Shown here: piece after piece, positions 3,654 through 22,434 of the stretch
How positions within the stretch are numbered: the first letter of the stretch is position 1
How the letters are laid out: every line of letters begins with the position of its first letter
Virus record (IMG/VR): IMGVR_UViG_3300036761_003974
Span: 1-22,520 of that record
From: a virus
DNA: 22,520 nt
Strand: one strand, 5' to 3'
The notes under the pieces: model-generated
Database searches by the model: none
Seen by the model: the letters and a program-made list of their open reading frames with translations, nothing else
Told to the model about the DNA's origin: nothing
Program-made: the position numbers and the translations under genes

Positions 3654-3655
3654 CA

Positions 3656-4204
3656 TCAACCTGCCTCCCCCAAGCGCCCGGGCGCGTCCTGCCTGGGCGT
3701 CTCTTCGGCCTCAGCCTGGGCGAAAAGTGGAGCGGCGTCTCGGAACTGCCCCGAGCCCTGGAACCTGGGAGGTTCCCGGATCGCTCTTGATCCCTCCGCC
3801 GCTCTCGTCTCCCCACCGCCCTCGAGTGTCCAGACGCAGTCATCCTTCTTCGGGTACTCCTGGCCCCACCGGAATGGCGACTCGCGGAGGAGCCGCTTCC
3901 TGAGGCCGTGGCCACACAGGAAGTGGCAGTACCGGAACTGTCGGCCGCGGACACGCCTGAGGCCCACGCTCCGCGAGAAGGCCCGTTCGACCGCCTGGTT
4001 GACCGCCGGGTCGCGGGCGAGCATCTGGAGCCTCGGCCCCGTCCCGACGACGTCGTTGGCCAGCGTCAGGACGATGCCCTTGGCGTAGCGGTCGGCGGCG
4101 ATCTGGTCGGCCAGGGAGTGCTGCTGAACGCCGCCGGTCTCGTCGGACGCGCTCGCCGGCCCTTCGGCGTTCGTGCGAATCGCGTCTTCCAGGTCGTCGC
4201 CCAT
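3656..4204 (-). CDS. Chimeric orf: portal-like N-terminus fused to Mom-like C-terminal tail
   Basis: A 182-residue open frame starting at ATG 4204 with AGGAGA eight bases upstream. Residues about 25-75 resemble the N-terminus of lambda-type phage portal proteins (SLADQIAADRYAKGIVLTLA, then NDVVGTGPRLQML). At about residue 77 the sequence switches to a tail nearly the same as the C-terminus of the Mom-like protein at 11865 (RSVGLRRVRGRQFRYCHFLC, LRKRLLRESPFRWG, YPKKDDCVW, EPPRFQGSGQF). The two tails are also highly similar as DNA (3722-3973 and 11919-12155) and differ by 15 bases in length, in frame. The likely origin is a recombination or deletion that removed most of the portal gene and the front of a mom gene. 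It is unlikely to work as a portal. The last residues (AQAEAEETPRQ onward) are unique. Confidence 0.65.
   Translation of the reverse strand: MGDDLEDAIRTNAEGPASASDETGGVQQHSLADQIAADRYAKGIVLTLANDVVGTGPRLQMLARDPAVNQAVERAFSRSVGLRRVRGRQFRYCHFLCGHGLRKRLLRESPFRWGQEYPKKDDCVWTLEGGGETRAAEGSRAIREPPRFQGSGQFRDAAPLFAQAEAEETPRQDAPGRLGEAG
3675..3699 (+). terminator. GC-rich hairpin after HARE-HTH copy A
   Basis: Nine-base arms CGCCCGGGC (3675-3683) and GCCTGGGCG (3691-3699) pair fully if one G-U is allowed, with a 7-base loop, followed by TCTCTTC. A corresponding hairpin with near-identical arms follows HARE-HTH copy B (8345-8373), so it appears to be a conserved 3' element of this gene. It lacks a long T-run, so it may be a weak or factor-assisted terminator. 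It overlaps the 3' end of the convergent gene at 3656. Confidence 0.5.
3722..3973. repeat. Mom-tail direct repeat, copy A
   Basis: The segment from GAAAAGTGGAGCGGCGT to GAGGCCCACGCTCCG is closely similar, in the same orientation, to 11919-12155. Conserved runs include CCGGAATGGCGACTC and ACACAGGAAGTGGCAGTACC. Copy A is 15 bases longer. Both encode the C-terminal tail of a Mom-like protein on the minus strand. The pair is about 8 kb apart and could recombine. Confidence 0.75.
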
Positions 4205-4255
4205 CGCCTGTCTCCTGCCTGCCCGCCTTGGGCGGGACGACCCGGCCGGGCGACG

Positions 4256-4297
4256 GCCAAAAAGAAAGGCCGTGCGGGGGTTCGGCCCCGAACGGCC
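4256..4297 (-). terminator. Intrinsic-terminator-like hairpin upstream of the portal-like chimera
   Basis: On the minus strand, GGCCGT (4297-4292) pairs with ACGGCC (4273-4268), with a second inner G/C stem, followed by TTTCTTTTT (4267-4259). It ends about 55 bases before the start codon at 4204. No clear minus-strand gene ends just upstream, so it may be a leftover terminator or a leader attenuator for the chimeric gene. Confidence 0.5.
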
Positions 4298-4474
4298 TGT
4301 ATCTTCTCGGACTCCGCGACGGGGATCAGCCGTCGCGTCGTCGCCCAGCCGGGTTGTCAACTCCTGCCTGCTAGTGATCTATACGCTTGAAAAGGAGGCC
4401 ATGCAAGAGATTCCCGCATGGCCCCGTTACACCGGTGTACTTTTTTTGCGGACATCAGCCTTATGACAGGCGGA

Positions 4475-7854: not shown

Positions 7855-8048
7855 GCTTGACCTCCTCGCTACCTGAAGGTGACGTTCCGTTTCTCTTGCC
7901 AGCCATCACGTTCACCTTCTGGTCCGCGTTGAGGATTGTGGCCAGAACGAATACTACTGTAGCCGCCTCCCGCTTTTTGTCAAGAGTCCGCCTGCCTTGG
8001 GAGCACTTCGGAACATCGTGTCGCGGCGGCGCCTCATGGGGCCCGTAG

Positions 8049-8282
8049 TCAGAGATACTCTTTGTCGACCCGCACCTGGCCGCAGTCCAGGCACCGACAC
8101 CGGCGTCGGATGATGGCCGTGTAGGGTGTGCCGTCGACACGCAGGCCGGGGCGCTTCTGGGCCATCTTTCCCCAGTACTCGCTGCGGCGGGCGCTGCCGC
8201 ACTTGGGGCAGTGCGACCGCTCGACGACCACCACGTCCACCGCGTTCTTGCTCCCCTTGGGTCCTGCAATTCGCTTCGCCAT
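8049..8282 (-). CDS. Small zinc-ribbon protein (phage regulator-like)
   Basis: A 77-residue protein with a four-Cys zinc ribbon: HCPKCGSARRSEYW near residue 25 and CRCLDCGQVR near residue 65. This is the arrangement of Ogr/Delta- or Com-type phage regulators and of phage zinc-ribbon adaptors. ATG 8282 was chosen over the longer frame because AGGAG lies about nine bases upstream and the N-terminus is then basic (MAKRIAGPKGSKN). It is the last gene of the long minus-strand phage operon, after HARE-HTH copy B and a hairpin. Two decayed copies lie at 4475-4553 and 5846-5936. A nucleic-acid-binding regulatory role is inferred. Confidence 0.7.
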   Translation of the reverse strand: MAKRIAGPKGSKNAVDVVVVERSHCPKCGSARRSEYWGKMAQKRPGLRVDGTPYTAIIRRRCRCLDCGQVRVDKEYL

Positions 8283-8344
8283 CGCCAATCTCCTATCGCA
8301 CGTAGGACACATGCCATGCCTGGACCTGACCGGCCACCCGGACA

Positions 8345-8373
8345 GACGCCCAGGCGTGTGCGGCCTGGGCGTC
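8345..8373 (-). terminator. GC-rich hairpin after HARE-HTH copy B
   Basis: Perfect 11-base arms GACGCCCAGGC (8345-8355) and GCCTGGGCGTC (8363-8373) around a 7-base loop, between the HARE-HTH stop (8388) and the zinc-ribbon start (8282). It corresponds to the hairpin after copy A (3675-3699), including a preceding CCCAA and a following TCTG/TCTC. There is no long T-run, so it may only partly reduce expression of the zinc-ribbon gene. Confidence 0.5.
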
Positions 8374-8387
8374 TTGGGCGGATACGG

Positions 8388-8891
8388 TTACTGGCGGGCA
8401 GCGGCCGTCGCCTCGAATTTCCCGCGCTCGGTCTTGCGGAACCGGGCGTCCTTGCCCTTGGCCCGCACCTCCCTGAGAATGGCTGCGTAAATTGTGGCGG
8501 CAGGGGTCTTGCCGCCGGTCTTCCAGAGGCCGTCGGCCAGCATCTCTTGGACCATGTCCTTGGTGTTCATCGGCTTGCCCGCCAGGACCAGGACCTTCGC
8601 CGCCGCGTCCAGGCCGCTGAGACCGTCGCGCTTCTTGGCCTCCCGCTTCGCCTTGGGGGCCTTCGGGGCGGCCGTGGGGGCCGCGGCGGAGGCGGTGGCC
8701 GCCGCCTTGCCCGCGCTCGGGACCGGGCCACGCAGGCGCTGGGCGCTCTTAATGCGGACCTTCTTGCCGGTCGCCTCATTCACCGCGTCCCAGCCGCCGT
8801 GGCCGCTCGTGCCTGTGATCCGCACCGGCACGACCTTGTCCGATACCTTGGCCAGGTACGCGCTGCCCACCTTCACCTCGTTCTTCTTCAT
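8388..8891 (-). CDS. HARE-HTH domain protein, copy B
   Basis: A 167-residue paralogue of the protein at 3117-3653. It has an N-terminal beta module ([20 protein letters not shown], then [20 protein letters not shown]), a shorter Ala-rich linker, and a C-terminal HARE-HTH winged helix ([55 protein letters not shown]). The ATG at 8891 overlaps the TGA of the upstream 46-aa gene (ATGA), and GGGAG lies upstream. As a gene in the same transcript as two DNA methyltransferases and Mom, a DNA-binding or modification-sensing role is plausible but not shown. Confidence 0.75.
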
Positions 8892-9028
8892 GGCTCGACT
8901 CCCATCGGCGGAATTGCCGGGCTGAGGGTCGCCCAACCGCACTTGCGGCACACGAGGCCCACGGCGTCTCGGTTCTGAAGGTCCGAGAGCCGCAGGGGCT
9001 GCCGCTGGTCCGGCGCTCGAGTGTCCAT
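8888..9028 (-). CDS. 46-residue protein with a single CxxC (half zinc ribbon)
   Basis: Encodes [20 protein letters not shown] and then [27 protein letters not shown] directly precedes the ATG, and the TGA overlaps the HARE-HTH start (ATGA). It begins two bases after the terminase stop. VGLVCRKCG looks like the first half of a phage zinc ribbon; the second Cys pair is missing, so it may be truncated or may dimerise around the metal. Confidence 0.6.
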
Positions 9029-9030
9029 TG

Positions 9031-10173
9031 TCACCTCCCCACGAGGGTGCTCAGGCGCACCCGGCCCCTCGGCCGACGCCGAACCAGGCCGACGTCCACG
9101 CCCGGCAGCGTCACGCCACACATGGCCGCGCCGACCACGCAGCCGACCAGGCAATCGAACCAGTGGTTGTCGAAGGCGTTGGCCCGCGGCTTCCACTCGT
9201 GCACGGTGCGGTTTCGGCCCTGCGTCTTGACAGGCACCTCCGCCGTCAGGTGCTCGGCGAGGAGCCTGTGGTCCTCCGGCTTCCGGCCCCAGAGGCTCAG
9301 GTCGCCCCGGTCGCCGTGCGGCACAGCCAGACGCGCGTGCAGGAACGACTTCCAGTAGTTGGTATCGAAGAGGACATGGCGGGGCACGTTCCTGCCCTTC
9401 GCGCCGGGCACCCGCCAGTTGTGGCCGACCTGGTCGCCGGCCTTCCGGCGGTATTCCGAGAAGGGCAACTGCGAGGCCGACACGCCGCGGCCGTGGCTCG
9501 GCATCACCGCCGCGCCGAAGGGCGACTCGCGGCAGAACTGGTACACGAGGCCGGTCGACTCCCCCCAGTTCGCGTCGATGAGAAGCCGCTCGATGCGCAG
9601 CAGCGCCCCGTCATCGCGCCGCCATTCCTGGTTCATCAGCCGCCCCACGAGCGCGTCCAGGCCCGCGCGGATGGCGCCCTCCGGCCAGTCGGCGCAGAGA
9701 AGCTCGTTGGTTTCGAGCCAGGTCTTGATGTCCCTGAGGAGTTCCTGCGCCCGTTCGGCCGACGCCGCCACCAACGACACATAGGGCCGGTAGCCCCCCA
9801 GGATGGCCCACAGGCAGGCGGCCTCCGCGAGCATCGTTTTGCCGCTCGCGCGCGGCATGGCATGGGCGAAGAGGCTGCCCTCGCGCACGGCCTGTTCAAT
9901 TTTGCCGATGGCCCGGAGGTGGTCCTCGGACCAGGGCAGGTAGAAAATCTTGGCGAAGTACGTCTCCGAGAAGAACCGGAAGTCGGCGATGGCCTTCGCC
10001 CTGCGGGCCGAGTCGGCGACCGCCGGCAGCGGCGCGATGTTCTGGGCCTCCTCCACCATCGTCCGCTGCCGGGCGGCGGCCTGGGCCTTGTGGCGGGCGT
10101 AGCCGGTGACCGACCAGCGCCGCCTACGAGTGGTCAGCGCCTTCAGGACCTCGTTCAGAACCGATGCGCTCAA
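9031..10173 (-). CDS. Phage terminase large subunit with a large internal deletion
   Basis: A 380-residue protein joining two separate parts of a terminase. Residues 1-164 are the front of the packaging ATPase with Walker A (PRASGKTM, 107-114) and match the terminase at 1161-1907. From about residue 166 the sequence reads as the C-terminal nuclease region: [20 protein letters not shown] with a candidate catalytic Asp200, then [40 protein letters not shown] and [17 protein letters not shown]. The middle of the ATPase, including the expected Walker B and coupling motifs, is absent. Family members are usually several hundred residues longer. The frame is kept across the junction (about 9678). 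The start appears to be TTG at 10173 with GGGG upstream, inside the end of the preceding gene. It cannot be a normal packaging motor. Confidence 0.75.
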
Positions 10174-10426
10174 CGCGGGTAATCCCCTGCATAAGCTGGT
10201 CCATCATGTTCTCGCCGCACGTCTCGCCGCAGAAGAGCGCGGTCTCTTCCATGACGCCAATGATAGCGCGGATGGCCTTGCTCAACTCCGCCTTGGTGAC
10301 CCGCTCCTCGCGCCGAACGTAGCCCGCCTTGCGGATGGCCTCGTCGATCCACGCGGCGTCGGGCTTGCCGGCGGCAGCCGCCTGGATGAGCGCCGTCAAC
10401 GTGGTGTGAATGTCGGATGTAGTCAC
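10124..10426 (-). CDS. Small phage protein preceding the terminase
   Basis: A 100-residue, mostly helical protein: MTTSDIHTTLTALIQAAAAG, then AELSKAIRAIIGVMEETALF and a short Cys pair (FCGETCG). Its ATG overlaps the methyltransferase stop (ATGA), and its last 50 bases overlap the terminase start. The position suggests a small terminase or packaging helper, equivalent to the 71-aa gene before the other terminase, but the sequences are not obviously alike. The family is not recognised. Confidence 0.55.
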   Translation of the reverse strand: MTTSDIHTTLTALIQAAAAGKPDAAWIDEAIRKAGYVRREERVTKAELSKAIRAIIGVMEETALFCGETCGENMMDQLMQGITRVERIGSERGPEGADHS

Positions 10427-11868
10427 TTCGAGACCTCACTGGGAGCCGTTTCCTGGGGTTGCCGCTCGGCCTTCTTGCCCGTGAACTGCTCGAAGCGCTG
10501 GACTATGACGTCTGCGTACAGGGTGTCGAGTTCCATCAGGTAGGCCCGGCGGCCCGTCATCTCGCAGCCGATGAGCGTGCCGCCGGCGCCGCCGAAGAGG
10601 TCCAGGACGTTTTCACCTGGCCGGCTGCCGTATTCGATGGCCCGTCGCGCGAGTTCCACGGGCTTCTCGGTCAAATGCTGCATCTGCGGCGGGGGAATCT
10701 TCTTGATGTGCCAGAGGTCCGCCGCGTTGTTCGGGCCGAAGAACTTGTGGCCGGCGCCCTCCCGCCAGCCGTAGAAGCAAATCTCGAACGCCCCCATGAA
10801 GTCCTTCCGCGTCAGGACTGGCCACTCCTTGTCCCACACGATGCCCTGACTGAAGTACAGTTCGCAGGCCTTCAGCACCGGCGGGTAGTTGCCGAGGTTG
10901 GCATACCCGCCCCAGATGTAGAAGCAGCGGCCGGGCATCAGCACGCGGGCGATGTTGCCGAACCAGGCATGGAGCATTGCATCGAAATCTTTGGGCGACA
11001 TGAAGTCGTTGACCAGGGGCCGGTCCTTCGGCCGCATCTTCTTCGTCGTGGCGCGCTTAACGCCCTGGCGGGCCACATCGAACGACTGGTGGTGCATCAG
11101 GCCGCGATGGGCGTCGGCGGCCTCGGCTCGCTTGGCAAGTCGCTCGCGGTCCTGCGCTCCCCGCTCGGTGGTCGACCGCTCGCACTGCAGGTCCTCTCGG
11201 CGAGAGAAGGAGGTCAGGCCCGCCGCGATGGCGTTGTTCGAGCGCGGCTCGACCTTGACGTTGTACGGCGGGTCGGTGTTGACGAGATGGACGGGGGCGC
11301 CGGCCAGGAGCCGGTCCACGTCCTCGGCCTTGCCCGCATCGCCGCAGAGCAGCCGGTGGTTGCCGAGTATCCACAGGTCGCCGGGCTTGGTGATCGCCTC
11401 GTCGCCCGGCTCAGGCACGGCATCCGGGTCCGTCTGGCCCGGGTTCATCTCGGCGGCCAGCGCCTTGGCCTGCTCGGCCAACTGGGCGAGCAACTGCTGG
11501 ACGCCCGGCTCGCCGCTCTGGACGCCTTTCAGGAGCTCGAGCAACGCAACGCCATCCAGTTCGGCGAGAGCAGTGGTCGCATCGAACGTCGCCAGGAGGT
11601 AATCGGCCTCGGCATCGTCCACGTCGAGGATGAGGACCGGCCACTCCGTGGCGCCGGCCTGCACGCGGGCATGGCCATCGATGAGGGTGAGTTTGCCCCC
11701 ATTGCGTTCGCTGCAGTACGCCACCAGGGCCCCGGCAATCCCCACCTCGGCCAGGACACCCGCCAGGGCGTCCTTCTGGGCCTGCGGGTGGCGGCGGAAG
11801 TTGCGGCCGTTCTCCAAGAGGTCGGCCACCGGCACGCGACGGAAATCCTTGATGCGGTCACGGATCAT
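10423..11868 (-). CDS. ParB-like domain fused to DNA N6/N4 methyltransferase (beta-type order)
   Basis: A 481-residue two-part enzyme. Residues 1-110 form a ParB/sulfiredoxin-like nuclease fold (PVADLLENGRNFRRHP, TLIDGHARVQAG). Residues 160-481 are an amino-methyltransferase: TDPPYNV catalytic motif IV (DPPY at 199-202), a long recognition segment, then the SAM-binding motif DLFGGAGGTLIG at about 423-434. Motif IV before motif I is the order of beta-class enzymes, which methylate adenine N6 or cytosine N4. This fusion is common in phages and protects phage DNA from host restriction. The start ATG overlaps the stop of the mom-like gene, so both modifications are made from one coupled message. 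No restriction partner is nearby. Confidence 0.85.
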   Translation of the reverse strand: MIRDRIKDFRRVPVADLLENGRNFRRHPQAQKDALAGVLAEVGIAGALVAYCSERNGGKLTLIDGHARVQAGATEWPVLILDVDDAEADYLLATFDATTALAELDGVALLELLKGVQSGEPGVQQLLAQLAEQAKALAAEMNPGQTDPDAVPEPGDEAITKPGDLWILGNHRLLCGDAGKAEDVDRLLAGAPVHLVNTDPPYNVKVEPRSNNAIAAGLTSFSRREDLQCERSTTERGAQDRERLAKRAEAADAHRGLMHHQSFDVARQGVKRATTKKMRPKDRPLVNDFMSPKDFDAMLHAWFGNIARVLMPGRCFYIWGGYANLGNYPPVLKACELYFSQGIVWDKEWPVLTRKDFMGAFEICFYGWREGAGHKFFGPNNAADLWHIKKIPPPQMQHLTEKPVELARRAIEYGSRPGENVLDLFGGAGGTLIGCEMTGRRAYLMELDTLYADVIVQRFEQFTGKKAERQPQETAPSEVSK

Positions 11869-12665
11869 TCAGCATCTCCTTTCCTGTCCGCCGCGATGGG
11901 CGGTGCTGCGAAGTCGGTGAAAAGTGGAGCGGCGTGTCGGAACTGACCCGACCCCTGGAACCTGGGCGGTTCCCGGCTCTCCCTTGAGCCCTCCGCCGCG
12001 CCCTCGAACGTCCAGACGCAGTCGTCCTTCTTCGGGTAGTTGTGGCCCCACCGGAATGGCGACTCCCGCAGCAGCCGCTTTCGCAAGGCGTGCCCACACA
12101 GGAAGTGGCAGTACCGGAACTGCCGGCCCCGCACCCGCCTGAGGCCTACGCTCCGGGTGAACACCCGGTCGCGCCGGCCGCAGCGGGTGGTCACCTGGCG
12201 GGGATGCACGACCTCGTTCTCCGGCGTCACGTAGAACTCGGTGCGGATGAACCCGCCGTAAAGCCAGTTGTCTGCCTGGTACACGAAGCCGGGCTTGCCG
12301 CGCATGCCGTCGGCCCACGAGAAGAGGACCACCCGCCCTGGCTCGCGCTGGCGGATGTACTCCCGGCAGAGGCGTAGGAAGTGGCTCTCGCCGTTCCGCG
12401 GCTCGGAATCGAGCATGCACAGGCGGTTCAACTCGTAGTAGTCCGACGTGGTCAGGCTCGGGAACAGCCGCTGGATGGTGTGCCGGGGCCTGACGCCGTA
12501 GCCCCACGACGCCACGCCCACAAGGTCCACGCCCGCGAAGCACCCCAGCGAGAGCAGGCAGTGCGGCGGCACCCGCACCGCATAGTGATGGGCCGCCACG
12601 AACGCGGCCATCAGGCTTCGCGGCACGGGTTCGACGTGGTACGCCTCGAATCTCTCGGTCGCCAC
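11865..12665 (-). CDS. mom: Mom-like DNA adenine hypermodification protein
   Basis: A 266-residue protein whose residues 15-160 carry the hallmarks of the Mu Mom family (GNAT-like fold): LVGVASWGYG near residue 48, YELNRLCMLD (77-86), and SWADGMRGKPGFVYQADNWL (117-135) followed by YGG. Mom converts adenine in DNA to a carbamoylmethyl-type derivative, which blocks many restriction enzymes. Residues 170-245 form an extra tail (RYCHFLCGH, LRKRLLRESPFRWG, YPKKDDCVW) that recurs in the chimeric orf at 3656. GTG 12665 was chosen because GAGGGAGA precedes it; the longer frame has no ribosome site. It is coupled by ATGA to a ParB-methyltransferase. In Mu, mom is tightly controlled by Dam methylation and the zinc-finger protein Com. 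No Com-like gene overlaps its start here, but small zinc-ribbon genes lie in the same operon. Confidence 0.75.
   Translation of the reverse strand: MATERFEAYHVEPVPRSLMAAFVAAHHYAVRVPPHCLLSLGCFAGVDLVGVASWGYGVRPRHTIQRLFPSLTTSDYYELNRLCMLDSEPRNGESHFLRLCREYIRQREPGRVVLFSWADGMRGKPGFVYQADNWLYGGFIRTEFYVTPENEVVHPRQVTTRCGRRDRVFTRSVGLRRVRGRQFRYCHFLCGHALRKRLLRESPFRWGHNYPKKDDCVWTFEGAAEGSRESREPPRFQGSGQFRHAAPLFTDFAAPPIAADRKGDAE
11919..12155. repeat. Mom-tail direct repeat, copy B
   Basis: Counterpart of 3722-3973 in the same orientation, lying inside the intact mom-like gene. The copies differ by scattered substitutions and a 15-base length difference that preserves the frame, which points to selection on the encoded tail at some stage. 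Confidence 0.75.
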
Positions 12666-13086
12666 CGCTGTCTCCCTCAGTCCAGCCGCCACGCCCCCAG
12701 TCGGCGTGGGCGCGACTGGCGCGAAATCTCAAGAAAGAAAGTGTCCTCGATACCACGACTGCCTCGCGTGGCCTTGGCCGCCGCCATCGGCGAGGAAGTA
12801 CCTATTCGCCTGCCGCCCGTCGCCGCCCGCTGCGCGCCACGTTTTGCCACGTCGCCAACAGCCTCGTCTCTCGACGTTCGCTTCAACTCGCCTTGCCCTC
12901 GTGGCCCGTGCGGGCGCGTTGGCGCACGTCTTACGGCAACAGCTTCTCAGGAAAAGAAGCACAGGCCACTCGTAGCCCGTGGCCACCTGTTCTTCTCACA
13001 TTCTTCTTTCCTGATAACGTCTTTACCTGTTCTGTACTGTACTGTTCTGTAGTCACGCTCTTGTCACGCTTGGACCGTGACATTTG
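12666..13086. other. Non-coding gap with T-rich/CTGTA repeats and part of the iteron array
   Basis: Between the initiator-like gene and mom. Near mom, CCACGCC (12689-12695) and GGCGTGG (12703-12709) form a small hairpin. At 13028-13050 there is a TGTTCTGTACTGTACTGTTC run; on the minus strand this extends the initiator frame past its TGA as TTEQYSTEQ, a repeat-coded sequence often seen at the ends of phage replication genes. A TTG-started 69-residue minus-strand frame (12677-12886) runs into the mom ribosome site but has no recognisable features. Confidence 0.5.
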
Positions 13087-13313
13087 TCACGCATCGTGCG
13101 TGACGCCGACGCCTTGCCGCTCGCGCTGCCTGCGCTTCCTTTCAGCGTTTTGCAGGCGTTTTTTCGCGGATTCGGCGTTCCACCGCTCCCAGTGCGGGAA
13201 GATGATTCCGCGTTCGTCCTCGAGCAGCCACCCGACTTCGAGCATGGCTTTGCCGAATCCTGTCACGCCGGTGACCTCATCGAGCGTGACACTTGTCACG
13301 CTGTCAGCGTGAC
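13052..13313. repeat. Iteron-like GCGTGAC/GTCACGC array (candidate replication origin)
   Basis: Copies of GTCACGC or its complement GCGTGAC occur at 13052, 13063, 13086, 13098, 13262, 13284, 13295 and 13307, with variants at 13075 (CCGTGAC) and about 13269 (CGGTGAC). Within each cluster the spacing is 11-12 bases, about one helical turn. Two pairs form palindromes: GTGACATTTGTCAC (13077-13090) and an 18-base one at 13284-13301. The array lies in and just after the initiator-like gene, as iterons do in lambda O-type origins. Confidence 0.6.
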
Positions 13314-13461
13314 CGTCGGTGGTGTTGGAGTCCGCCCATTCCCAGGCTTCCATGCAGAGGCACGCGACGAGGCGGCGGTCGAGGCTGAGGCGGTTGGCGA
13401 TGGCGATGACTTCGCGCTTCAGCGTCAGGCCTTTCGTCCAGGCGATCCAGTCCCCGGCCAT
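13087..13461 (-). CDS. Phage replication-initiator-like protein (DnaD/O-type N-terminus)
   Basis: A 124-residue protein. It starts MAGDWIAWTKGLTLKREVIA and has a winged-helix-like body: LSLDRRLVACLCMEAWEWAD, VTGFGKAMLEVGWLLEDERG, then IIFPHWERWNAESAKK. It ends in a very basic tail (RLQNAERKRRQRERQ). This layout is typical of the N-terminal DNA-binding domain of phage replisome organisers. The ATG follows the primase stop by one base and GGAG lies upstream. The Val-Thr repeats in the middle are encoded by GTGAC iterons. It is shorter than many initiators and ends at a TGA, after which the same frame stays open for about 50 codons, so the C-terminus may be truncated. Confidence 0.65.
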   Translation of the reverse strand: MAGDWIAWTKGLTLKREVIAIANRLSLDRRLVACLCMEAWEWADSNTTDGHADSVTSVTLDEVTGVTGFGKAMLEVGWLLEDERGIIFPHWERWNAESAKKRLQNAERKRRQRERQGVGVTHDA

Positions 13462-13462
13462 G

Positions 13463-14305
13463 CTATGGTCTCCAATACAGGGCGCCGGCGATGACAGCGT
13501 CCACCACTGGCCGTGTTGCGCCCGCCTGCAGCCAGGCCCTGGCATCCTTGCCCTGAAGCGGGCGGATCACCTTGGGCCGTCGGCCCGCCTCGGTCAGCGC
13601 CTGGGCGAGGCGGTCGGCGCCGTCGATACCAGGCCCGTCGGTGTCGGCCACGATGACTACTTCGCAGCGATTGAGTACGCGGACGACCTCGATGACGATT
13701 TCGACAGCCCCCGCGCATGACGGGCGACCGATGGCGTCGTAGCCGAGATCCAGGAGGGCCGCCACGTCGGTAGGCCCCTCGCACAGCAGCAGCGGCCCGC
13801 TGCCGGTCAGGTCCTCGGGCCAGAAGATGCCATTAAGGCTGCCGCGGATGGCCCACTTCTTCCCGTTCTCAGCCCGCAAGCGGACACCGATGGTCTGGTG
13901 CTTGTCGTCGCACATCGGGAATGCCCAAGCCCGGTGCGGCGCCGCCCACGCGATCCCAAGCCGACGTAGGCTGTCAGGCGAGACGCCGAGGCTGGCTGCC
14001 AGGCGTTCGACCTCGGCCGTCCGCGTGTCGCGCTCGAACCGGCGCAGCAGCGCAATCCAGTCCGTTGTGCGCGGTAGGGGGGCTCGGGGCCGCGGCATGT
14101 AAAGGCTTGGAGCGGGACGGGGCGCGGGGTCGGCGAGCCGGTGTAGCCAGCCACCGTTCTTGGTCGGGCGGTCGGATTTGACGCGCATGCAGATGGCCAC
14201 GCTGCCATCGGCCGAGTAGCCGCACCAATCCCCATGGCCGCACACGGCACATGGTCGGCGCCGTGTCACTCGACCCCATCCCGTTTCGGTCGCAGTCTGT
14301 GTCAT
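13463..14305 (-). CDS. TOPRIM/CHC2-type phage DNA primase
   Basis: A 280-residue primase without a helicase part. The N-terminus has a zinc motif (C19-x2-C22, then CGYSADGSVAIC to C39). The TOPRIM core follows, with the catalytic Glu in LLLCEGPTDV (E176, D180) and the DxD metal pair in VIVADTDGPGIDGAD (D221, D223). Between them is LRRLGIAWAAPHRAWAFPMC and a GVRLR strand, as in the primase half of T7 gp4-like proteins. It makes RNA primers for element replication and is followed one base later by the initiator-like gene, forming a replication cassette. Its ATG overlaps the TGA of the upstream nuclease-like gene. Confidence 0.85.
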   Translation of the reverse strand: MTQTATETGWGRVTRRRPCAVCGHGDWCGYSADGSVAICMRVKSDRPTKNGGWLHRLADPAPRPAPSLYMPRPRAPLPRTTDWIALLRRFERDTRTAEVERLAASLGVSPDSLRRLGIAWAAPHRAWAFPMCDDKHQTIGVRLRAENGKKWAIRGSLNGIFWPEDLTGSGPLLLCEGPTDVAALLDLGYDAIGRPSCAGAVEIVIEVVRVLNRCEVVIVADTDGPGIDGADRLAQALTEAGRRPKVIRPLQGKDARAWLQAGATRPVVDAVIAGALYWRP

Positions 14306-14844
14306 GCTCTCTCCAGATCGCGATAGGTGTAGACGAAAGCCGGCCGCAGCTTCTCAATGGGAATGGCAAAGAAAGAGGCGCGACCGTGGATTCGGTTCTG
14401 TCGTTTGGTGCCGATGGCGGGGAGGCCGCCAGCTCGTTCGACGAGGAGTTTGTAGGCGGCAACGTCGAGGACGACCCATTTGTCGAAGTCCGTCTCGGCC
14501 TCGTTGGCCCAGCCGTAGAAATACAGTTGGGACCCCAGTTTGAACCACTCGCCGGGTGACTCATGCTCCGTGCCCTCGGCGTTCATATATTCCTGCGTGA
14601 AATCCAGATACTTAAGGGCCGCATGGCTCCGGTATTTCTCCTGGATGCTCACCCACTGTCCCGCCTGGAATCGAATCAGGGCGTCGATGCCGAACTCCTT
14701 GTCGAGCACATGGACCTTGACGCCCTCTTTCCGCAGGTCTTCGACCTCGCAGCCCGGGAAGAGCCGGTGGTAGATGCGTAAGGCGGCCGGTTTCATCCGC
14801 TCTTGGAACTTCACCGTGGGCAGATTCTCAAAAGGTTGCCTCAT
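14302..14844 (-). CDS. Putative PD-(D/E)XK-like phage nuclease
   Basis: A 180-residue protein with a probable restriction-endonuclease-like core: GIDALIRFQAG (D54), a strand, then WVSIQEKYRSHAALKYLDFT, giving D-x(n)-(Q/E)-x-K spacing. Downstream are WFKLGSQLYFYGWANEAE and DKWVVLDVAAYKLLVE. The motif uses Gln where Glu is usual, so catalysis is uncertain. The location between a methyltransferase and a primase, with ATGA overlaps on both sides, suits a recombination or DNA-processing nuclease. An alternative is a DNA-binding relative that has lost activity. Confidence 0.5.
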   Translation of the reverse strand: MRQPFENLPTVKFQERMKPAALRIYHRLFPGCEVEDLRKEGVKVHVLDKEFGIDALIRFQAGQWVSIQEKYRSHAALKYLDFTQEYMNAEGTEHESPGEWFKLGSQLYFYGWANEAETDFDKWVVLDVAAYKLLVERAGGLPAIGTKRQNRIHGRASFFAIPIEKLRPAFVYTYRDLERA

Positions 14845-16160
14845 ACGGTTCCGAAGATTTCCTCATGCGGTTCCAAGACCCGCCCGTAGGTGGCAATACG
14901 GCCCTTGGCGACCGCAAGGTACTCCGCGTTATTCTCGATCCCGTGGAACCTCCGGCCGAGTTGAAGCGCGGCAATGCCGGTGGTGCCACTCCCGACAAAG
15001 GGATCGCAGACCAACTCGCCCGCGCGCGTCACGGCGTTCACGAGCCAGCGCATTACCGAGATGGGCTTCTGCGCCGGGTGCTGCTTCATCTCCGCGCCGT
15101 TGAAATTGGATTGGGGCACAGCAGCGACATGGCAATCAAAGTCGTGAAGCTCCTCCCCCCAATGCCCATCGGACAACTCGATCCGGCGCGTGCTGCCCTG
15201 GCGGCGATAGAAGAAGATGGGCTCCCAGGTCTGCTTGAATCCGCGGCGGCTCTGCGGGCTCTTGTTGTTCGGATAGTGCCAGACCAGGAGTTGCTGGAAC
15301 TCGTAACCCTTGAGCGACTGGTCAAACCACTGGCGCCCGGTCCACAGGTAGCGCTGGCTCCAAAAGATGAGGATGGTGTCGGCCCCACACGCTGACCAGC
15401 GCGAGCACCACTCGCGGGTAAAGGATTCCAACTGTTTCGGTTCCCACGGCTCGTCGAGAATGCCGTAAGGCGGGTCGGTGATGAGCGCGGCGCACGGCAC
15501 AACATCCTGAGCGGCGGTCAGAACCCATCCCTCGGCGGGTGCCGCGCTCGCGCGCTCCTCGGCGGCTCTTCTTGCTCGACGTACCTTCGAAAACGCCCGG
15601 TCTACCTTGCCCGTCTCGTCCATTTCCTTGACGAGTGGGCCGAAGAGCTTGGGGTCGTCCTGGGCCGCCTGGACGACGGCCTGAGCCTTCTCATAGGTGC
15701 GCCGCTTCATGCCGACGGCGGCGGCGACCCTTTCCCTGACGCGAGCCTTCTTCACTGTGGGCAATTTGCCCACAGTGTTCTTGGGCCTGCCCGGTGCGGT
15801 TCCCCCGTGTTGGCGCTGCCGCTCCTTAGCGGCCCTGCTCTCGATAGTCTCGATTGCCGCCCCGACGGCGACGGCCTCGGACGGCGCGAAGTCCTTTCGA
15901 CAGACATTCTCGTCACGCTGAGCGACGAGCAACCGAAGGGCATCCTCCAGACTGTCTGCAACCACGGCCTCGATTTCCGTCCACCCGAGCAGCCTCGCTG
16001 CCTCGACACGCCTCTGACCGGCAATCAACCGGTTCTTAGAATCGAGGACAACGGGTTGCAGCAGGCCGACGGCCCGGATGCTCGACACCAACGGCCCCAG
16101 ATCGCCAAGGTCTTTCCTGTAGCGACCCTTGATATGAATCTGGTTGATGGCAACTTTCAC
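14841..16160 (-). CDS. ParB-like domain fused to DNA methyltransferase, second copy type
   Basis: A 439-residue protein. Residues 1-85 are ParB-like (INQIHIKGRYRKDL, IRAVGLLQPVVLD, LIAGQRRVEAARLLGW). Residues 85-205 form a helical ParB-type DNA-binding middle (VGMKRRTYEKAQAVVQAA). Residues 210-439 are a methyltransferase with LITDPPYGIL (DPPY at 229-232) and CDPFVGSGTTGIAA (from 386). It is clearly different in sequence from the fusion at 10423, so the element carries two modification specificities. GTG 16160 was chosen because GAGGAGG lies just upstream; the longer frame lacks a site. The gene contains a 25-base near-perfect palindrome at 15753-15777. Confidence 0.85.
   Translation of the reverse strand: MKVAINQIHIKGRYRKDLGDLGPLVSSIRAVGLLQPVVLDSKNRLIAGQRRVEAARLLGWTEIEAVVADSLEDALRLLVAQRDENVCRKDFAPSEAVAVGAAIETIESRAAKERQRQHGGTAPGRPKNTVGKLPTVKKARVRERVAAAVGMKRRTYEKAQAVVQAAQDDPKLFGPLVKEMDETGKVDRAFSKVRRARRAAEERASAAPAEGWVLTAAQDVVPCAALITDPPYGILDEPWEPKQLESFTREWCSRWSACGADTILIFWSQRYLWTGRQWFDQSLKGYEFQQLLVWHYPNNKSPQSRRGFKQTWEPIFFYRRQGSTRRIELSDGHWGEELHDFDCHVAAVPQSNFNGAEMKQHPAQKPISVMRWLVNAVTRAGELVCDPFVGSGTTGIAALQLGRRFHGIENNAEYLAVAKGRIATYGRVLEPHEEIFGTV
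15753..15777. repeat. 25-bp palindrome inside the ParB-methyltransferase gene
   Basis: CACTGTGGGCAA, a single central T, then TTGCCCACAGTG: 12-base perfect arms. It encodes NTVGKLPTV in the linker between the ParB-like region and the helical DNA-binding part. A perfect inverted repeat of this length in coding DNA is unusual and looks like a protein-binding site or RNA hairpin. Confidence 0.7.
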
Positions 16161-16186
16161 GGTGCCTCCTCGGAGCGATGTTTGGC

Positions 16187-16208
16187 CCTGCGACCTGCAT
16201 GTCGCAGG
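16187..16208. repeat. Hairpin between 102-aa gene and ParB-methyltransferase
   Basis: CCTGCGAC (16187-16194), six-base loop, GTCGCAGG (16201-16208): perfect 8-base arms just before the methyltransferase ribosome site. No T-run follows on the minus strand, so a translational or processing element is more likely than a terminator. Confidence 0.4.
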
Positions 16209-16228
16209 AGCGTTTGGGGCTGTGGCGT

Positions 16229-16537
16229 TCAGCACCGGGCCACCTCCGCCTGCGGCGGCTTGGGCGCACCCTCGATGCGCTCGACCTGGAAGGCATCCGC
16301 GCCGAATTCGCGAGTGATGAAGCCCGCGAAGATGCGGTTAAGGGTACGGCCGACTTGGGTGCCCGCGTCGACCACGCAGACGCGCTTGGCATTCTCGATG
16401 CAGTAGCCGGCGTCCAGACGAACGCAGCACTGGCCGTGCAGGGACTCTGCTGCCAAGACGGCCAGAAGCAATGTTTCCTCGATGTCTCGGAGCGACACGC
16501 CTTCTCTGAACTGGTACTTGTAGATTTCCTTGGGCAT
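16229..16537 (-). CDS. Hypothetical phage protein (102 aa)
   Basis: Starts MPKEIYKYQFREGVSLRDIE, with AAGGA upstream of the ATG. The first half is helical (SLRDIEETLLLAVLAAESLH), followed by strands (CCVRLDAGYCIENAKRVCVV) and FAGFITREFGADAFQVERI. Four Cys residues are present but not in a zinc-ribbon pattern. It lies between the sigma factor and the ParB-methyltransferase. No function is recognised; its small size and early position suggest a regulatory or host-takeover protein. Confidence 0.6.
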   Translation of the reverse strand: MPKEIYKYQFREGVSLRDIEETLLLAVLAAESLHGQCCVRLDAGYCIENAKRVCVVDAGTQVGRTLNRIFAGFITREFGADAFQVERIEGAPKPPQAEVARC

Positions 16538-16613: not shown

Positions 16614-17192
16614 TCAGAGGTATTCCCTAAGCCGGGCTTTCTCGAACTTGCGACGGTTCTTCAGAACGGATTCGTGCAGCGTCCCGCGCGGGGTGCCTGT
16701 TTCCCGCGCTACTTCGGTTAGGTCTTGCCTCATCAGCCGACGACAAAGGTCACGCAGTTCCGGCGGGAGGCGTGCAAGAGTGGCCTTAGTGTCGAGACCC
16801 AAATCAACGCTTTCTTCCACGGAGTGGCCGGGAACACCTGTTCGCAGATGGCGGGTGTCCTCGCCAAGCGTGTCGCCGCATTCCGCTGACCTTCCGCCGT
16901 CCTGGTCCTCCAGCGGGCGGTTCAACGAGGACCGGCAACGGCGGAAGTCGCGGCAGGGCGCTGTCCTGGCCTCGATGATCGATGCGACTTTGTGTTCCAC
17001 GACGTGGGTGATGAACGCGTTGAGCGGGGCCTTGCCGGGATCGAACTTTGACAGACGACGCCAGAGGTCCAGTCGCATGTCCTGGGCAAAGTCTTCCCAG
17101 TCCACTTCGGGGGATGCTGCCGTCCTGGCCAACTTCCGAGCCTTGAATCTGATCAGGTTTTCCGCATAGTCGCCGATGCCCTCGACACCCAT
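16614..17192 (-). CDS. Phage-encoded sigma-70-like (ECF-type) sigma factor
   Basis: A 192-residue protein with sigma region 2 at residues 10-75 (AENLIRFKARKLAR, WEDFAQDMRLDLWRRLSKFD, NAFITHVVEHKVASIIEA). A charged linker follows. Region 4 helix-turn-helix is at 140-192 (LARLPPELRDLCRRLMRQDL, then TEVARETGTPRGTLHESVLK). GAGGAGG precedes the ATG. As the first gene of the long minus-strand operon it probably directs RNA polymerase to element promoters. No anti-sigma gene is adjacent. Its RRLSKFDPGK segment lines up with the host-type sigma pseudogene at 178-705 and supplies the expected Trp there. Confidence 0.75.
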   Translation of the reverse strand: MGVEGIGDYAENLIRFKARKLARTAASPEVDWEDFAQDMRLDLWRRLSKFDPGKAPLNAFITHVVEHKVASIIEARTAPCRDFRRCRSSLNRPLEDQDGGRSAECGDTLGEDTRHLRTGVPGHSVEESVDLGLDTKATLARLPPELRDLCRRLMRQDLTEVARETGTPRGTLHESVLKNRRKFEKARLREYL

Positions 17193-17256: not shown

Positions 17257-17390
17257 GGGGCGGACAGGGGCGGACAGCGCGGACTGTCCAAGGATTTCTG
17301 CAAAGGGTCCGTGTCGCCGCAGAACTGGGGGTGGACAGGAAGGGATCTTTTCAGTATGTGTCCGGTGCTGTCCGCGGACAGGGCGGACAG
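17257..17390. promoter_or_regulatory. GCGGACAG repeat/palindrome cluster (candidate operator or iteron region)
   Basis: GGGGCGGACA is repeated in tandem at 17257-17266 and 17267-17276. GGACAG/CTGTCC form an inverted repeat with a 6-base spacer (17272-17289). CTGTCCGCGGACAG at 17368-17381 is a perfect 14-base palindrome, directly followed by GCGGACAG (17383-17390). GTGGACAG lies at about 17331. The cluster fills the gap (17193-17437) upstream of the sigma-led operon, which suits repressor or activator binding. No gene is seen in the gap. Confidence 0.6.
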
Positions 17391-17437
17391 TCGAAAGGCG
17401 TTAGCCGCTAGTCGTCATGACGTGTGAGCCAGTCAGG

Positions 17438-20368
17438 TTAGATTTGGTCAGCGCGCGGGATAGAACCGTATGGTGCCGACCGGCCCGAACGGGTACTTGC
17501 GAGGTGCTGCTCGTATTCACGCACGTATCGGTCGAATGTGGCAGCGTTTGTCGGCAAAGTGTACTCACGCGGTATCAGCGCGGCAGTCTTCAGTTCTTCC
17601 AAGCCGCCGTCTCTTAGCCACAGAAAGACTTCCTTGTGAGTCCTGGACACCAATTCCTGCTTGTGGCTGAGGGCGGCTCGATAGGCTTCACAAGCCTTCT
17701 TCCGAGACGGTGGAGGTTCGGATTTCGCTCCTGTTGAACCTGCCGTGGGCATCTTCCCGTCCCCAGAGTCGCTTGGATTTCCACCCTCTTGCCCAGTGCC
17801 GGGTTTGGGCGAGGGCGCACCGAGCTCGCCAATACCGGACTTGGTCTCCTCTTCCCAAATCGCATGGTTCAAGGAGACAATCGCACTATCCAACTCTTCC
17901 AGGTAGCGCCAAGACACCGGGTGAGGCGACCACCTCGGAAAACCCGAGCGCGCCACGCCTCGGCATTTCTCAACGATGCCGATGCAGGCCCAGTCCGGCG
18001 TGTGTTGTCCCAGGACGGCTATGGCAAGTCGGCAGATCTCATCGGCACTTGCCTCAAGCGGACCGACTCCGTCTGCCTCGATCTGCCATTCGGGCCAGAA
18101 TACGCACACTCCCTCGTCAAAGACGTTGCCCACTCCCTTCCCCGCGCCAAACATCTCGTAGGCTGCATTTGCGAAGTCCTCAACGCCTTTGGCGTGGCGC
18201 AGAAGGACCTCCGCCGGAAGGGGTTGGTCTCCTCGATGTTGTTTCAGGTCATCAGGGTCGAATACCTCTCGCCTATCTAGCGTCTCCCAACGGGCCGCAA
18301 AATCCTGTCGCCGGGCGTGCGCATACCAGAGGAAAAGCAGCCTGTGCAGTTTGACGGCCTGAAGCAGATGTTTGAGCTCCGGCCTGGCTTCATTGCATGG
18401 CCGAACCGAGAATGCGCACGGTCGGTCTGCACCCCAGCTGTCGCACTCGTTCTGGACAAGAAGCCATGCCTGAACCGGCTGCCATTGGTCTGTCGCCAAC
18501 ACTCCGATCAGCCTCGCCTTAGCAGCCTCGTCTTTGCACCGCGGAAGGAGCAGGACGACCCCCTTTCCGGTGCGGTACGCGCACCCGAGCAAATCACCAG
18601 CCATGTTCTGAAAGAGGGGCACAAGGCGGTCCTTTTCCTTGAACCAAGTTGTGTCGAGCCTTACGTCGATGGTCGGCCCCAAGAACGGCAGAAGTTCGCT
18701 GGCCCACTGCGGGGCATCCTTCGGCACTACTAGCCGAGAATCAGGTGGTTCCTGGGGCTCGAAACGGAACCCCTCTGCCGCCACGAACGGCTCCTCGTCG
18801 CGGTATTCAGCCAGATCAACGGCCACCGGCGCAATTCCCCACAAGCCTTCCTCGGCATACTTCCGCTCTGGTGGCAGGGCCCCGAATTGTCTTGCTGCAT
18901 CCTCAATCGAGATGGCCGATCCTTCGGCGGCGCTCTCGTTCGAGTCGTACTTCCGGAACCGAACATCCACCTTCACGGGCTCTACGAACGCAACAGCGAT
19001 CAAGGCTCCGGATCGAAGTCCCTTCAGAAGGTTCTCGTACTGCTCCGGTAGTTCATTCGCGAGCGGCGGGTGTCCTGCAGCTACCAAGGCACTTGTCATT
19101 GCCTCCTGGCGGTGGGCAAATTCCTCAGGCCACAAGTGCATTGCCGTAGCCGGATATGGGATGGCGGCGGGAAAACCCAGGACCACGTCAGGGGAGTGGA
19201 CATAGAGGGCGGGATCGTACTCGTAAACAGGGCGCGCAAGGACGGACACCGTGTTGAGCCCGGCCTGCCGAAGAACTCCTGCCAGCCGCTCGTTAGGGCA
19301 GATCACGTTGCATGTTTGCACGCTTCCTGGGGCTGGCGGCGATTTGCTGTGCGTCTCCGGGGCCGAAGGCGTTTTCGCTTTCTCCAGAAGAGCATCGCTT
19401 GGCTTACCGCCGTTTGTCGACTCGGCCAACGGCTCCGTTGGCGCGGAAGGCGGCTTAGCCGGCAGCGCCCTAGTACCGTCGTGTTTGACTGTGGCGGCAG
19501 ATTCGGCGGTCCTACCGACCGTCTTGCCAACGCCCAGTTTCTCTCGGAGTTGGCGTTCCCAGCGTGTTGCCATGACGGAGAAATCGCTGTCTTCGCCAAC
19601 CACTTCGCCCTTCTGATATCTGGCAACGGAGGCGTCCGCAAGGATCGTCTCACCAACGTCAAGCGCGTCCACCGTCGCGTAGCCAAACCAGAGTTTCTCC
19701 CCTTGGCTTTTCTGGAACATGTCGACCAAGCGGGCAGCCAAGTCTTCTGAATCGACTTTGTGGAAGTAAAACTTCTCATTGATGTCCACCCTCGGGTCTA
19801 GCGGTATTATTGTCCCATACGTGAACCAGAGGTAGGCACCCTTCGCCTTGGCCGCCGTTGAGCCACTTTGCCCTTGGGTAGCATCGTCAGCCCCCGATTC
19901 GTCACGGATAAGCGGCTCCCATCGCTGAGCCTGGTATCGCAGGCGCATGAGCAATACCGTTCCCTTATCGTGGGGCAGGCCGCCGGCAGCCCACACGCCG
20001 GGGTCCCAGTCGCCGACCGACTCTATCTCCTGCAATACCTTGATGCTGTCTCGACAGAAGACACGTTGGGCGAATTCCAACTCCTCTATGTCGATAACAC
20101 CAAAGACAGGTTGGACCGCCCATTCGAGCAGATTCTTGAACGCCTCAATCGTTCCGACGGGAGCTTTCAAATCGGCCGGGGGGTTTGGCTTGCCATACCT
20201 GAACAAGTCCAACAGTTTCTCCGCGACAACCGGCGAGTCTACTTGGCAGAATACGCGGACTTTCCTCTCATGGGTTAGACTGGGATCAAGCGCAAGGTCG
20301 GGGTCGCCGCTGGCGTCAGTGCCCAACAGCATATACGGCAGCTGGGCGGTCAAGAAATATGGGGGCAT
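17438..20368 (-). CDS. Large protein of unknown function with internal N-terminal duplication
   Basis: A 976-residue protein at lower GC than the phage operon. Two related units are visible at residues about 12-155 and 179-277: LALDPSLTHERKVRVF, VDSPVVAEKLLDLF and RWEPLIR align with IPLDPRVDINEKFYFH, VDSEDLAARLVDMF and RWERQLR. A disordered Pro/Ser/Lys linker (280-370) leads to a globular middle (ICPNERLAGVLRQAGLNTVS, FPAAIPYPATAMHLWPEEFA), then mixed alpha/beta sequence. A second disordered linker near 865-905 precedes a helical C-terminus (LWLRDGGLEELKTAALIPRE). No catalytic motif, membrane segment or signal peptide is recognised. ATG 20368 was chosen, with AGGTGAG before it. It stands between the operon control region and the recombinase, a usual place for cargo or defence genes; function is unknown. 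Confidence 0.7.
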   Translation of the reverse strand: MPPYFLTAQLPYMLLGTDASGDPDLALDPSLTHERKVRVFCQVDSPVVAEKLLDLFRYGKPNPPADLKAPVGTIEAFKNLLEWAVQPVFGVIDIEELEFAQRVFCRDSIKVLQEIESVGDWDPGVWAAGGLPHDKGTVLLMRLRYQAQRWEPLIRDESGADDATQGQSGSTAAKAKGAYLWFTYGTIIPLDPRVDINEKFYFHKVDSEDLAARLVDMFQKSQGEKLWFGYATVDALDVGETILADASVARYQKGEVVGEDSDFSVMATRWERQLREKLGVGKTVGRTAESAATVKHDGTRALPAKPPSAPTEPLAESTNGGKPSDALLEKAKTPSAPETHSKSPPAPGSVQTCNVICPNERLAGVLRQAGLNTVSVLARPVYEYDPALYVHSPDVVLGFPAAIPYPATAMHLWPEEFAHRQEAMTSALVAAGHPPLANELPEQYENLLKGLRSGALIAVAFVEPVKVDVRFRKYDSNESAAEGSAISIEDAARQFGALPPERKYAEEGLWGIAPVAVDLAEYRDEEPFVAAEGFRFEPQEPPDSRLVVPKDAPQWASELLPFLGPTIDVRLDTTWFKEKDRLVPLFQNMAGDLLGCAYRTGKGVVLLLPRCKDEAAKARLIGVLATDQWQPVQAWLLVQNECDSWGADRPCAFSVRPCNEARPELKHLLQAVKLHRLLFLWYAHARRQDFAARWETLDRREVFDPDDLKQHRGDQPLPAEVLLRHAKGVEDFANAAYEMFGAGKGVGNVFDEGVCVFWPEWQIEADGVGPLEASADEICRLAIAVLGQHTPDWACIGIVEKCRGVARSGFPRWSPHPVSWRYLEELDSAIVSLNHAIWEEETKSGIGELGAPSPKPGTGQEGGNPSDSGDGKMPTAGSTGAKSEPPPSRKKACEAYRAALSHKQELVSRTHKEVFLWLRDGGLEELKTAALIPREYTLPTNAATFDRYVREYEQHLASTRSGRSAPYGSIPRADQI

Positions 20369-20593: not shown

Positions 20594-20788
20594 ATGGACG
20601 AATTTCCGGAAACCCCTTGTATTCCTCGCGGGAAGAGGCAGGATCACCCGGCGCACGAAGCCGGGCGGCCTGTCCTGCTCAGCGTGCGCCGGGGACCTGA
20701 AGAGCGGCGGGCCATGCGGCAGTGGCTCGTCAAGGTCCTGGCACGGCGGGCGGTTGAAATCCTGCAAGGAAGGGAGGACGGAAGATGA
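20594..20788 (+). CDS. Possible small protein overlapping the recombinase start
   Basis: A 64-residue frame starting MDEFPETPCIPRGKRQDHPA and ending in a basic helix (MRQWLVKVLARRAVEIL). Its TGA overlaps the recombinase ATG (ATGA), and GCAGGTGA precedes the start. It would be a small partner or leader for the recombinase. It is also possible that the gap 20369-20784 is only a divergent promoter and attachment-site region. Confidence 0.4.
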   Translation: MDEFPETPCIPRGKRQDHPAHEAGRPVLLSVRRGPEERRAMRQWLVKVLARRAVEILQGREDGR

Positions 20789-22434
20789 CGAGGAAAACAG
20801 CCATCTACGCGAGGTACTCGTCCCATGCCCAGGACGGCGGCACCTCCATCGAGGTCCAACTGGAGGCCTGCGGCCGTGGGTTGGAGCCCGCCAGCGTCCT
20901 GGAGTACGTCGACCGGGCCAAGACGGGCAGGGCGGTGGCGGGCCGTGAGGCCCTTCTGCAACTCCTTGCCGATGCCGTGGAGGGCAAGATCGAGCGTGTT
21001 CTCGTCTACAAGTACGACCGCGTTGGCCGCAACCTGGCCGAGACAAGCGCCATCATTGCCCAGCTTGAGGACTGCGGCGTCGAGGTCGCCAGCGTCACGG
21101 AAGGCAAGGACGCCCTTGCCAGGGGCATGCACTTGGTCATCAGCGAGCACTACTCCCGCGCGCTGGCCGAGCGAACGCGGGACGGACTGGTCAAACGGTT
21201 CGAGCAGGGCGCCTGGCCGGGCGGCCCGCCGCCGTATGGGTACAGCATCGAGCAGACGGAGGACAAGCTGCACCGCCTGAGAATCAATGAGGAAGAGGCC
21301 GCCGTCGTCCAGTGGGTGTTCCAGACGTACACGACCGAGTCCGTCGGCTGCAAGGAGATTGCCCGCCGGCTTCATGGCCGTGGCATCTCGCCGCGAAAGG
21401 CCTCCAGGTGGGCCCATACGGGCGTCAGGGGGATGCTGGTCAACAGTATCTGCACCGGCCGGCTCGCGTACAACCGTCGCCGGTTCAAGGTCCAGAAGCA
21501 GACAGGACGGCGCGTGGCGGTCCGGAACGACGAAGCCGACCACCTTGTGCAGCAGGACGAGAGGCTCCGAATCATCGACGACGAGCAGTTCCAGGAGGCC
21601 CAGCAGCGGCTCGCGGGTCGCCGCCGGGGGCGGCGCGGGCCGTACCTGAGGTCCGAGGCCCGGCCCTTCACGGGCCTGATCTTCTGCGAGACGTGCGGCA
21701 GCATCTGTTACCGACGGAAGAGCAAGAACGCCAAGGGGGAGTACCACTACTATGGCTGCGGCTGCCGCCAGCGCCACGGGCCCGATGCGTGCGAGAACGC
21801 GGCCAGCATCCGCGAGGACCTGCTTCTCCAGGAGGTGGCCAGGACGTTCAAGGACCTCTTCGAGGACGCCGACTCCATCATTGAAGAGGCCACTGCGGAA
21901 GCCCAAAGGCTGATGCGGAAGAACAGGGGGGCGGTACGACGCATCGGTGGGCAACTGGCCGAAATCGAGAGGAAGGTCGCGTCCCTGACGAGGCTGTTGT
22001 GCGACCCGGACATCGACGTGGCCGCCAAGAGGGCCATCTCGCGCCAACTTGGCGAACAGGAGGCCGAACGAGAACGGCTACAGAAGGCCACGTCAGGACT
22101 GGCGGAAGAGGCGAACGACGGCACGGAACACCTCGCCGACGCCGTCAGGCAGGCCCTGGACGAGGCCCGGGAGTCCTTGGCTTCCGCCGCCACGACCGCC
22201 GAACTGCGGGAGTTCGTGGACCGGTGGGTCGGTCCGATGGTTCTCAGGCCGGACGGGACCATCGTGGAAAGAACACTGGCCGCGGAGGATACCTCCGAGG
22301 CCAGTGTGAAGGGGTTGGTAGCGGGGGCACGCTTTCTCATTTACCCACGACCGCCAGCGGGCGGCCACCTGCCCTTGTCCGGCGGCGTCCTCGTGCCGTT
22401 CACCTGGTGCCGCGAGTGTCACCGGGCAGGTTAG
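20785..22434 (+). CDS. Large serine recombinase (integrase)
   Basis: A 549-residue recombinase with all expected parts. The catalytic resolvase domain (1-135) has the nucleophile in IYARYSS (S12), VLVYKYDRVGRNLAET and HYSRALAERTRDGL. The recombinase domain follows (about 150-260; GGPPPYGYSIEQ, EIARRLHGRGISPRK, MLVNSICTGRLAYNR). A zinc ribbon (FCETCGSICYRR and YGCGCRQRHGPDACEN, about 307-343) comes next, and a long coiled coil (about 360-460; IGGQLAEIERKVASLTRLL) controls directionality. It integrates or excises the element by cutting attP and attB with 2-base staggered breaks. ATG 20785 follows GGAAGGGAGG. The gene looks full-length and active, unlike the packaging genes. Its stop codon lies inside a 22-base repeat. 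Confidence 0.9.
   Translation: MTRKTAIYARYSSHAQDGGTSIEVQLEACGRGLEPASVLEYVDRAKTGRAVAGREALLQLLADAVEGKIERVLVYKYDRVGRNLAETSAIIAQLEDCGVEVASVTEGKDALARGMHLVISEHYSRALAERTRDGLVKRFEQGAWPGGPPPYGYSIEQTEDKLHRLRINEEEAAVVQWVFQTYTTESVGCKEIARRLHGRGISPRKASRWAHTGVRGMLVNSICTGRLAYNRRRFKVQKQTGRRVAVRNDEADHLVQQDERLRIIDDEQFQEAQQRLAGRRRGRRGPYLRSEARPFTGLIFCETCGSICYRRKSKNAKGEYHYYGCGCRQRHGPDACENAASIREDLLLQEVARTFKDLFEDADSIIEEATAEAQRLMRKNRGAVRRIGGQLAEIERKVASLTRLLCDPDIDVAAKRAISRQLGEQEAERERLQKATSGLAEEANDGTEHLADAVRQALDEARESLASAATTAELREFVDRWVGPMVLRPDGTIVERTLAAEDTSEASVKGLVAGARFLIYPRPPAGGHLPLSGGVLVPFTWCRECHRAG

Follow-up and report, generated by a model that had tools for sequence, protein, structure and literature searches.

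The window, which here means the whole stretch of DNA analysed, is a 22.5-kb IMG/VR virus record. It encodes P0003, a 976-aa modular protein, on the minus strand (20368 to 17438), and the reading frame proposed in the original prediction was found at those coordinates. The frame is intact, with a stop at 17438 and a start at either GTG 20371 or ATG 20368. ATG 20368 is favored because both relatives of the protein likewise begin MPPYYL/MPSYFL, and the length of 976 aa is counted from this codon. As predicted, P0003 is flanked by a control region, which bears repeats, and by an integrase, which is a serine recombinase-type enzyme encoded divergently 413 bp away. This arrangement is kept in three records. 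The lower GC content attributed to the gene is also present but modest (58-61% vs 65-71% in much of the window).

The downstream operon is co-directional with P0003, and its later genes include a TOPRIM primase-like protein, a methyltransferase, and a Mom-type protein. The setting is that of a temperate phage or prophage, and a PEP-CTERM/FGE-sulfatase gene in the window hints at a planctomycete-like host. The features are collected in Table 1.

Table 1. Features of the P0003 locus, in window coordinates
Feature	Position	Strand	Remarks
P0003, 976-aa modular protein	17438..20368	minus	open frame; ATG kept in both relatives
N-terminal repeat unit 1, residues 1-160	19889..20368	minus	7-copy alignment AF2 pLDDT 85.8
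Repeat unit 2, about residues 176-279	19532..19843	minus	aligns with unit 1
Linker 1, residues 280-347	19328..19531	minus	also in P0004, whose downstream modules differ
Core module, residues 348-642	18443..19327	minus	missing from both relatives
Module B, residues 648-846	17831..18427	minus	common to P0002 only
C-terminal module, residues 889-976	17441..17704	minus	differs in all three; proposed DNA-binding end
CTGTCCGC / GCGGACAG repeat array, proposed operators	17257..17395	.	between P0003 stop and sigma gene
Large serine integrase, divergent neighbor	20785..22434	plus	PF00239, PF07508, PF13408; phrog_95 E 4e-89
Sigma-70 region 2 protein, first in downstream operon	16614..17192	minus	PF04542 E 2e-6; phrog_1740 E 5e-11
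102-aa conserved protein, adjoins sigma gene in wider group	16229..16537	minus	relatives in 43 IMG/VR loci
ParB-like nuclease domain + DNA methyltransferase	14841..16235	minus	PF02195, PF01555

Several other features of these records were observed. The 3' end of the integrase gene overlaps a tRNA-Met in L002 (768-844) and L003 (9532-9608), a putative attachment site, and these therefore look like integrated elements. The window copy of the integrase (22310-22434) drops in similarity where L002 and L003 have the tRNA-Met. Terminase- and Mom-type sequence is present in degenerate duplicate in window positions 1-4400 and 8000-12700 (3719-3989 vs 11916-12171, 82%; 3107-3285 inverted vs 8723-8902), which suggests either a rearrangement or an additional, related prophage. 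A 539-aa protein without a family match (6024-7643, minus) contains an R-x4-H-like stretch, RSRTAHG, reminiscent of HEPN RNases. L009:14283-15104, near the G001 terminase, has a sub-threshold match to DUF6338 (E 6e-4).

P0003 and its two relatives

P0003 was originally described as an orphan, and no match was found in Pfam, PHROGs, PADLOC, NCBIfam, or PDB sequences. A housekeeping or phage structural assignment was sought among PHROG, Pfam, and NCBIfam families, of which P0003 matched none; it also matched none of the PADLOC defense models and has no similarity to QatC/QueC in Pfam or PADLOC. The whole protein and its separate modules gave no match in family, PDB-sequence, plasmid, or phage tblastn searches. 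Two scans of genome collection contigs, one by pattern for the P0003 family and one for the integrase, gave no match and hence neither a cellular homologue nor a host lineage; searching 42 related virus records over their full length also gave no match.

Two relatives are present in IMG/VR: P0002 in L002 (911 aa) and P0004 in L003/G001 (927 aa). The three proteins occupy the same position beside integrases that are 90-92% identical between the window and the other two records. P0004 was reached solely via its integrase. When the viral collection was scanned with P0003, P0002, P0004, an alignment of the three, or the core, these three family members were the only ones returned.

A duplicated N-terminal domain and a mosaic chain

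The N-terminal duplication noted earlier is real; it is weak within P0003 and stronger against unit 1 of the relatives. Units 1 and 2 of P0003 align with a score of 46 (shuffled mean 27, sd 4.6; 1 of 500 shuffles as high), and unit 2 aligns with unit 1 of the relatives at scores of 59-63 (0 of 500 shuffles as high). Unit 1 is 74% identical to that of P0002 and 33-38% identical to that of P0004. An alignment of the seven copies in the three proteins is modeled by AF2 as one compact domain. This model has no fold match (best E 2.8 in the PDB and 0.51 in BFVD), and the repeat unit is thus a fold without a counterpart among the solved or viral structures searched.

The remainder of the chain is a mosaic. 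Units 1 and 2 are common to P0002 and P0004, unit 1 and a linker to P0003 and P0004, and unit 1 and module B to P0003 and P0002. The linker match joins residues 267-355 of P0003 to L3 463-549 (38% identity, E 3e-7). Module B is 56-69% identical between P0003 and P0002 (56% over 649-900). It was considered as a further copy of the repeat unit, and this was dropped; it is helical in a low-confidence model and lacks alignment support. The core has no match in Pfam, the PDB, or plasmids and no relative in viral contigs. The C-termini of P0003, P0002, and P0004 share no similarity with one another. No helix-turn-helix (HTH) homology was detected in the P0003 C-terminus by Pfam or hhalign, and it did not match the profiles of the C-terminal types T1 and T4 of the wider group (below). 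The linkers had been called disordered. They are rich in Pro/Ala/Ser/Gly, and the full-length AF2 model gives them no structure, but this model is unreliable (pLDDT 33) and was set aside.

The mosaic is also visible in the DNA. The window and G001 are 92% identical up to the start codon (20355) and 79% identical from the sigma gene (17017), with just 61 bp of similarity between these two points.

Repeat arrays behind the gene

Each family member has a distinct array in the spacer between its gene and the sigma gene. In the window, CTGTCCGC is found as five exact 8-mers in 131 bp of spacer, and three more are found elsewhere in the 22.5 kb. The G001 spacer holds five copies of CACTTTCC, which are all the copies of that 32-kb record. 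The L002 spacer has GTTAC/GTAAC (GTTACC) six times in two clusters. None of 200 shuffles reached the count of the window or G001 array, and neither record has a denser 8-mer array outside the spacer; the L002 array is imperfect and falls short of significance in exact-k-mer shuffles. The layout is alike in the three records, with a cluster soon after the stop codon and a second about 100 nt further. These predicted, operator-like sites before the sigma operon thus differ by record, and within the P0003 family the link between array and C-terminus is based on n=3. A search of the spacer gave no sigma-70 promoter. The CTGTCCGC array was also tried as a guide to other phages and abandoned, as the scan matches carried no related genes.

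A different set of repeats is embedded in a small gene after the primase. The window copy (12960-13470, minus) has 10 GTCAC/GTGAC and no GTAAC/GTTAC, and the homologous stretches in L002 (9310-9740) and G001 (22590-23070) have 9 GTAAC/GTTAC and no GTCAC/GTGAC. The motif has thus switched in concert, and the repeats may be iterons of an origin.

C-terminal types and their sites in the wider group

The 102-aa neighbor of the sigma gene was used as a query and identified 43 IMG/VR loci. The sigma/102-aa pair is constant in loci that are long enough, and the preceding gene varies, being modular across about 20 records. In an all-against-all comparison of the preceding proteins, N-terminal families are recombined with C-terminal types. 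The T1 C-terminus is found on P397-type (L018) and P315-type (L029, L033) N-termini, and the T2 C-terminus is found on QatC-like (L015), L017-type, and P315-type (L026, L044, L048) N-termini.

In 623 kb, the inverted repeat TTGCAGT-N17-ACTGCAA is found solely behind T1 genes (L018, L029, L033), 10-18 nt past the stop codon. GCYACR-N5-YGTRGC is found seven times in the same 623 kb, always directly downstream of a T2 3' end, and the T2 gene of L015 has a one-base variant of it. One site, in L013, lies outside the motif-discovery set, and the truncated frame before it ends T2-like. Both motifs were picked after inspection, with L013 as the sole unplanned match, and the near-identical loci L029/L033 and L044/L048 are not independent. 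Behind most other slot genes, the exact-k-mer test gave no significant repeat arrays; sites there may be few or degenerate. DNA-binding homology is seen in the C-termini of the L020 slot protein, which has a Trans_reg_C (E 2e-9), and of the L029 slot protein, which has a weak HTH_Crp_2 match below the cut-off (E 0.002). Since the C-terminal type travels with its site over unrelated N-termini, the two are best read as a DNA-binding domain and its operators.

A proposed operon switch and its rivals

There is, in our judgment, an even chance that P0003 is an operator-binding phage regulator of the switch (immunity) type, with an exchangeable DNA-binding end and operator. The N-terminal repeat units, core, and module B would be input or assembly modules. 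The last module would grip the short repeats in the spacer that separates the P0003 stop codon from the sigma operon, and binding would control that operon, most likely keeping it off in the prophage. The C-terminal module and the repeat array would swap jointly between related phages as one cassette, altering regulatory specificity and leaving the integrase and downstream genes unchanged. By analogy with the T1 and T2 types of the related records, the C-terminal module of P0003 would bind DNA and the protein would regulate the sigma operon through the CTGTCCGC operators. The position, the mosaic build, the distinct array behind each family member, and the linkage of C-terminus and site in two other C-terminal types of the locus are observed; that P0003 binds DNA, which module would do so, whether it represses or activates, and what the N-terminal units do are inferred. 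Against a regulator stand the lack of HTH homology in the P0003 C-terminus, the spacer without a sigma-70 promoter, the small family, and the unexplained core and module B. A chain of 976 aa would also be unusually long for a repressor, and some slot proteins match the defense protein QatC.

Defense cargo is the main rival, and both readings may be partly true. It was the role favored by the original prediction, and it has the support of proteins that match defense models at homologous positions; the exchangeable DNA-binding-type ends with matching sites instead favor a regulator. We consider it unlikely that P0003 is a prophage-borne defense or superinfection-exclusion effector, in which incoming phage is sensed or attacked by the units and core, and the C-terminal module serves as an adaptor or in autoregulation. 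The variable slot adjoins the integrase. QatC-like proteins lie in the slot, directly before the sigma operon, in L015 (5511-7652) and L020 (4469-6388) (PADLOC E 3e-56 and 3e-62). Farther upstream lie an HmaC match in L024 and, in L042, a type I restriction enzyme (HsdR), relatives of which occur in L035-L047. Among the genes compared, pairwise dN/dS is highest for unit 1 (0.49; integrase 0.19), but these pairwise values are below 1, carry no significance test, and are not a test of positive selection. P0003 itself has no PADLOC match and no recognizable catalytic domain, and the slot QatC-like proteins also have extra, exchangeable C-terminal domains: one is linked to an operator, and the other is a winged helix of the Trans_reg_C family.

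Two further readings concern the repeats. The arrays may be read by another factor, e.g., the downstream sigma, with the P0003 gene as hitchhiking accessory cargo in a swapped segment. The sigma genes also differ among the three records (57-58% identical), so the arrays could track sigma, but the T1 and T2 sites follow the C-terminus of the upstream gene over unrelated N-termini, and we regard this reading as improbable. More improbable still is a replication or partition initiator, where the repeats are origin iterons bound by P0003 in a plasmid-like phage state. The direct repeats have an iteron-like spacing of about 10 bp and the operon encodes ParB-like proteins, but the element carries an integrase, the inverted repeats that make up the T1 and T2 sites resemble operators, and the small post-primase gene with its embedded GTCACGC/GTAACGC repeats is a better origin candidate.

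Extending the regulator reading to the wider group is more tentative and less likely than not. The locus before the conserved sigma operon would be a polymorphic phage switch, whose regulators combine an N-terminal sensor or enzyme module, drawn from unrelated kinds (repeat arrays, a QatC-like enzyme, a Zn-ribbon type), with an interchangeable DNA-binding end, and the operators of that end would follow the stop codon directly. If this is true, the DNA site that follows a gene could be predicted from the type of its C-terminus, a sequence-level rule that would help to read the lysis-lysogeny circuitry in a group of uncultivated phages. Regulatory specificity would move as domain-plus-operator cassettes, and some proteins of this locus with defense-like N-termini, e.g., QatC-like proteins, may act as regulators or be fused to them.

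Comparison with known systems

We do not place P0003 in any known family of repressors, as no HTH is recognizable in its sequence. In lambdoid phages, the repressor and its operators move together when phages that are otherwise alike exchange immunity regions. The regulator and operator proposed here would likewise be exchanged as a unit; unlike the lambdoid repressors, P0003 has a large, repeat-bearing N-terminus and no CI-like protease domain, and no sequence relation was found. The Qat system is represented by the QatC-like proteins that fill the slot in L015 and L020, to which P0003 is not similar.

BrxR/WYL regulators of defense islands are multidomain, dimeric proteins that bind inverted repeats (PMC9122601). 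No WYL domain was found here, and the target appears to be a phage sigma operon. The likeness lies in a multidomain regulator with inverted-repeat sites, where binding is predicted in our case, at loci with defense genes (PMC9122601).

Cluster A mycobacteriophages possess immunity repressors and stoperators, and repressor and sites co-vary (PMC6550527). Their repressors carry the HTH at the N-terminus, and the sites are scattered across the genome (PMC6550527), unlike the P0003 locus, where the variable end is C-terminal, the chain is a multidomain one of 900-980 aa, and the sites are just behind the gene. As in Cluster A, the proposal is of a temperate-phage regulator whose site motif diverges with the protein and whose neighbors are syntenic (PMC6550527).
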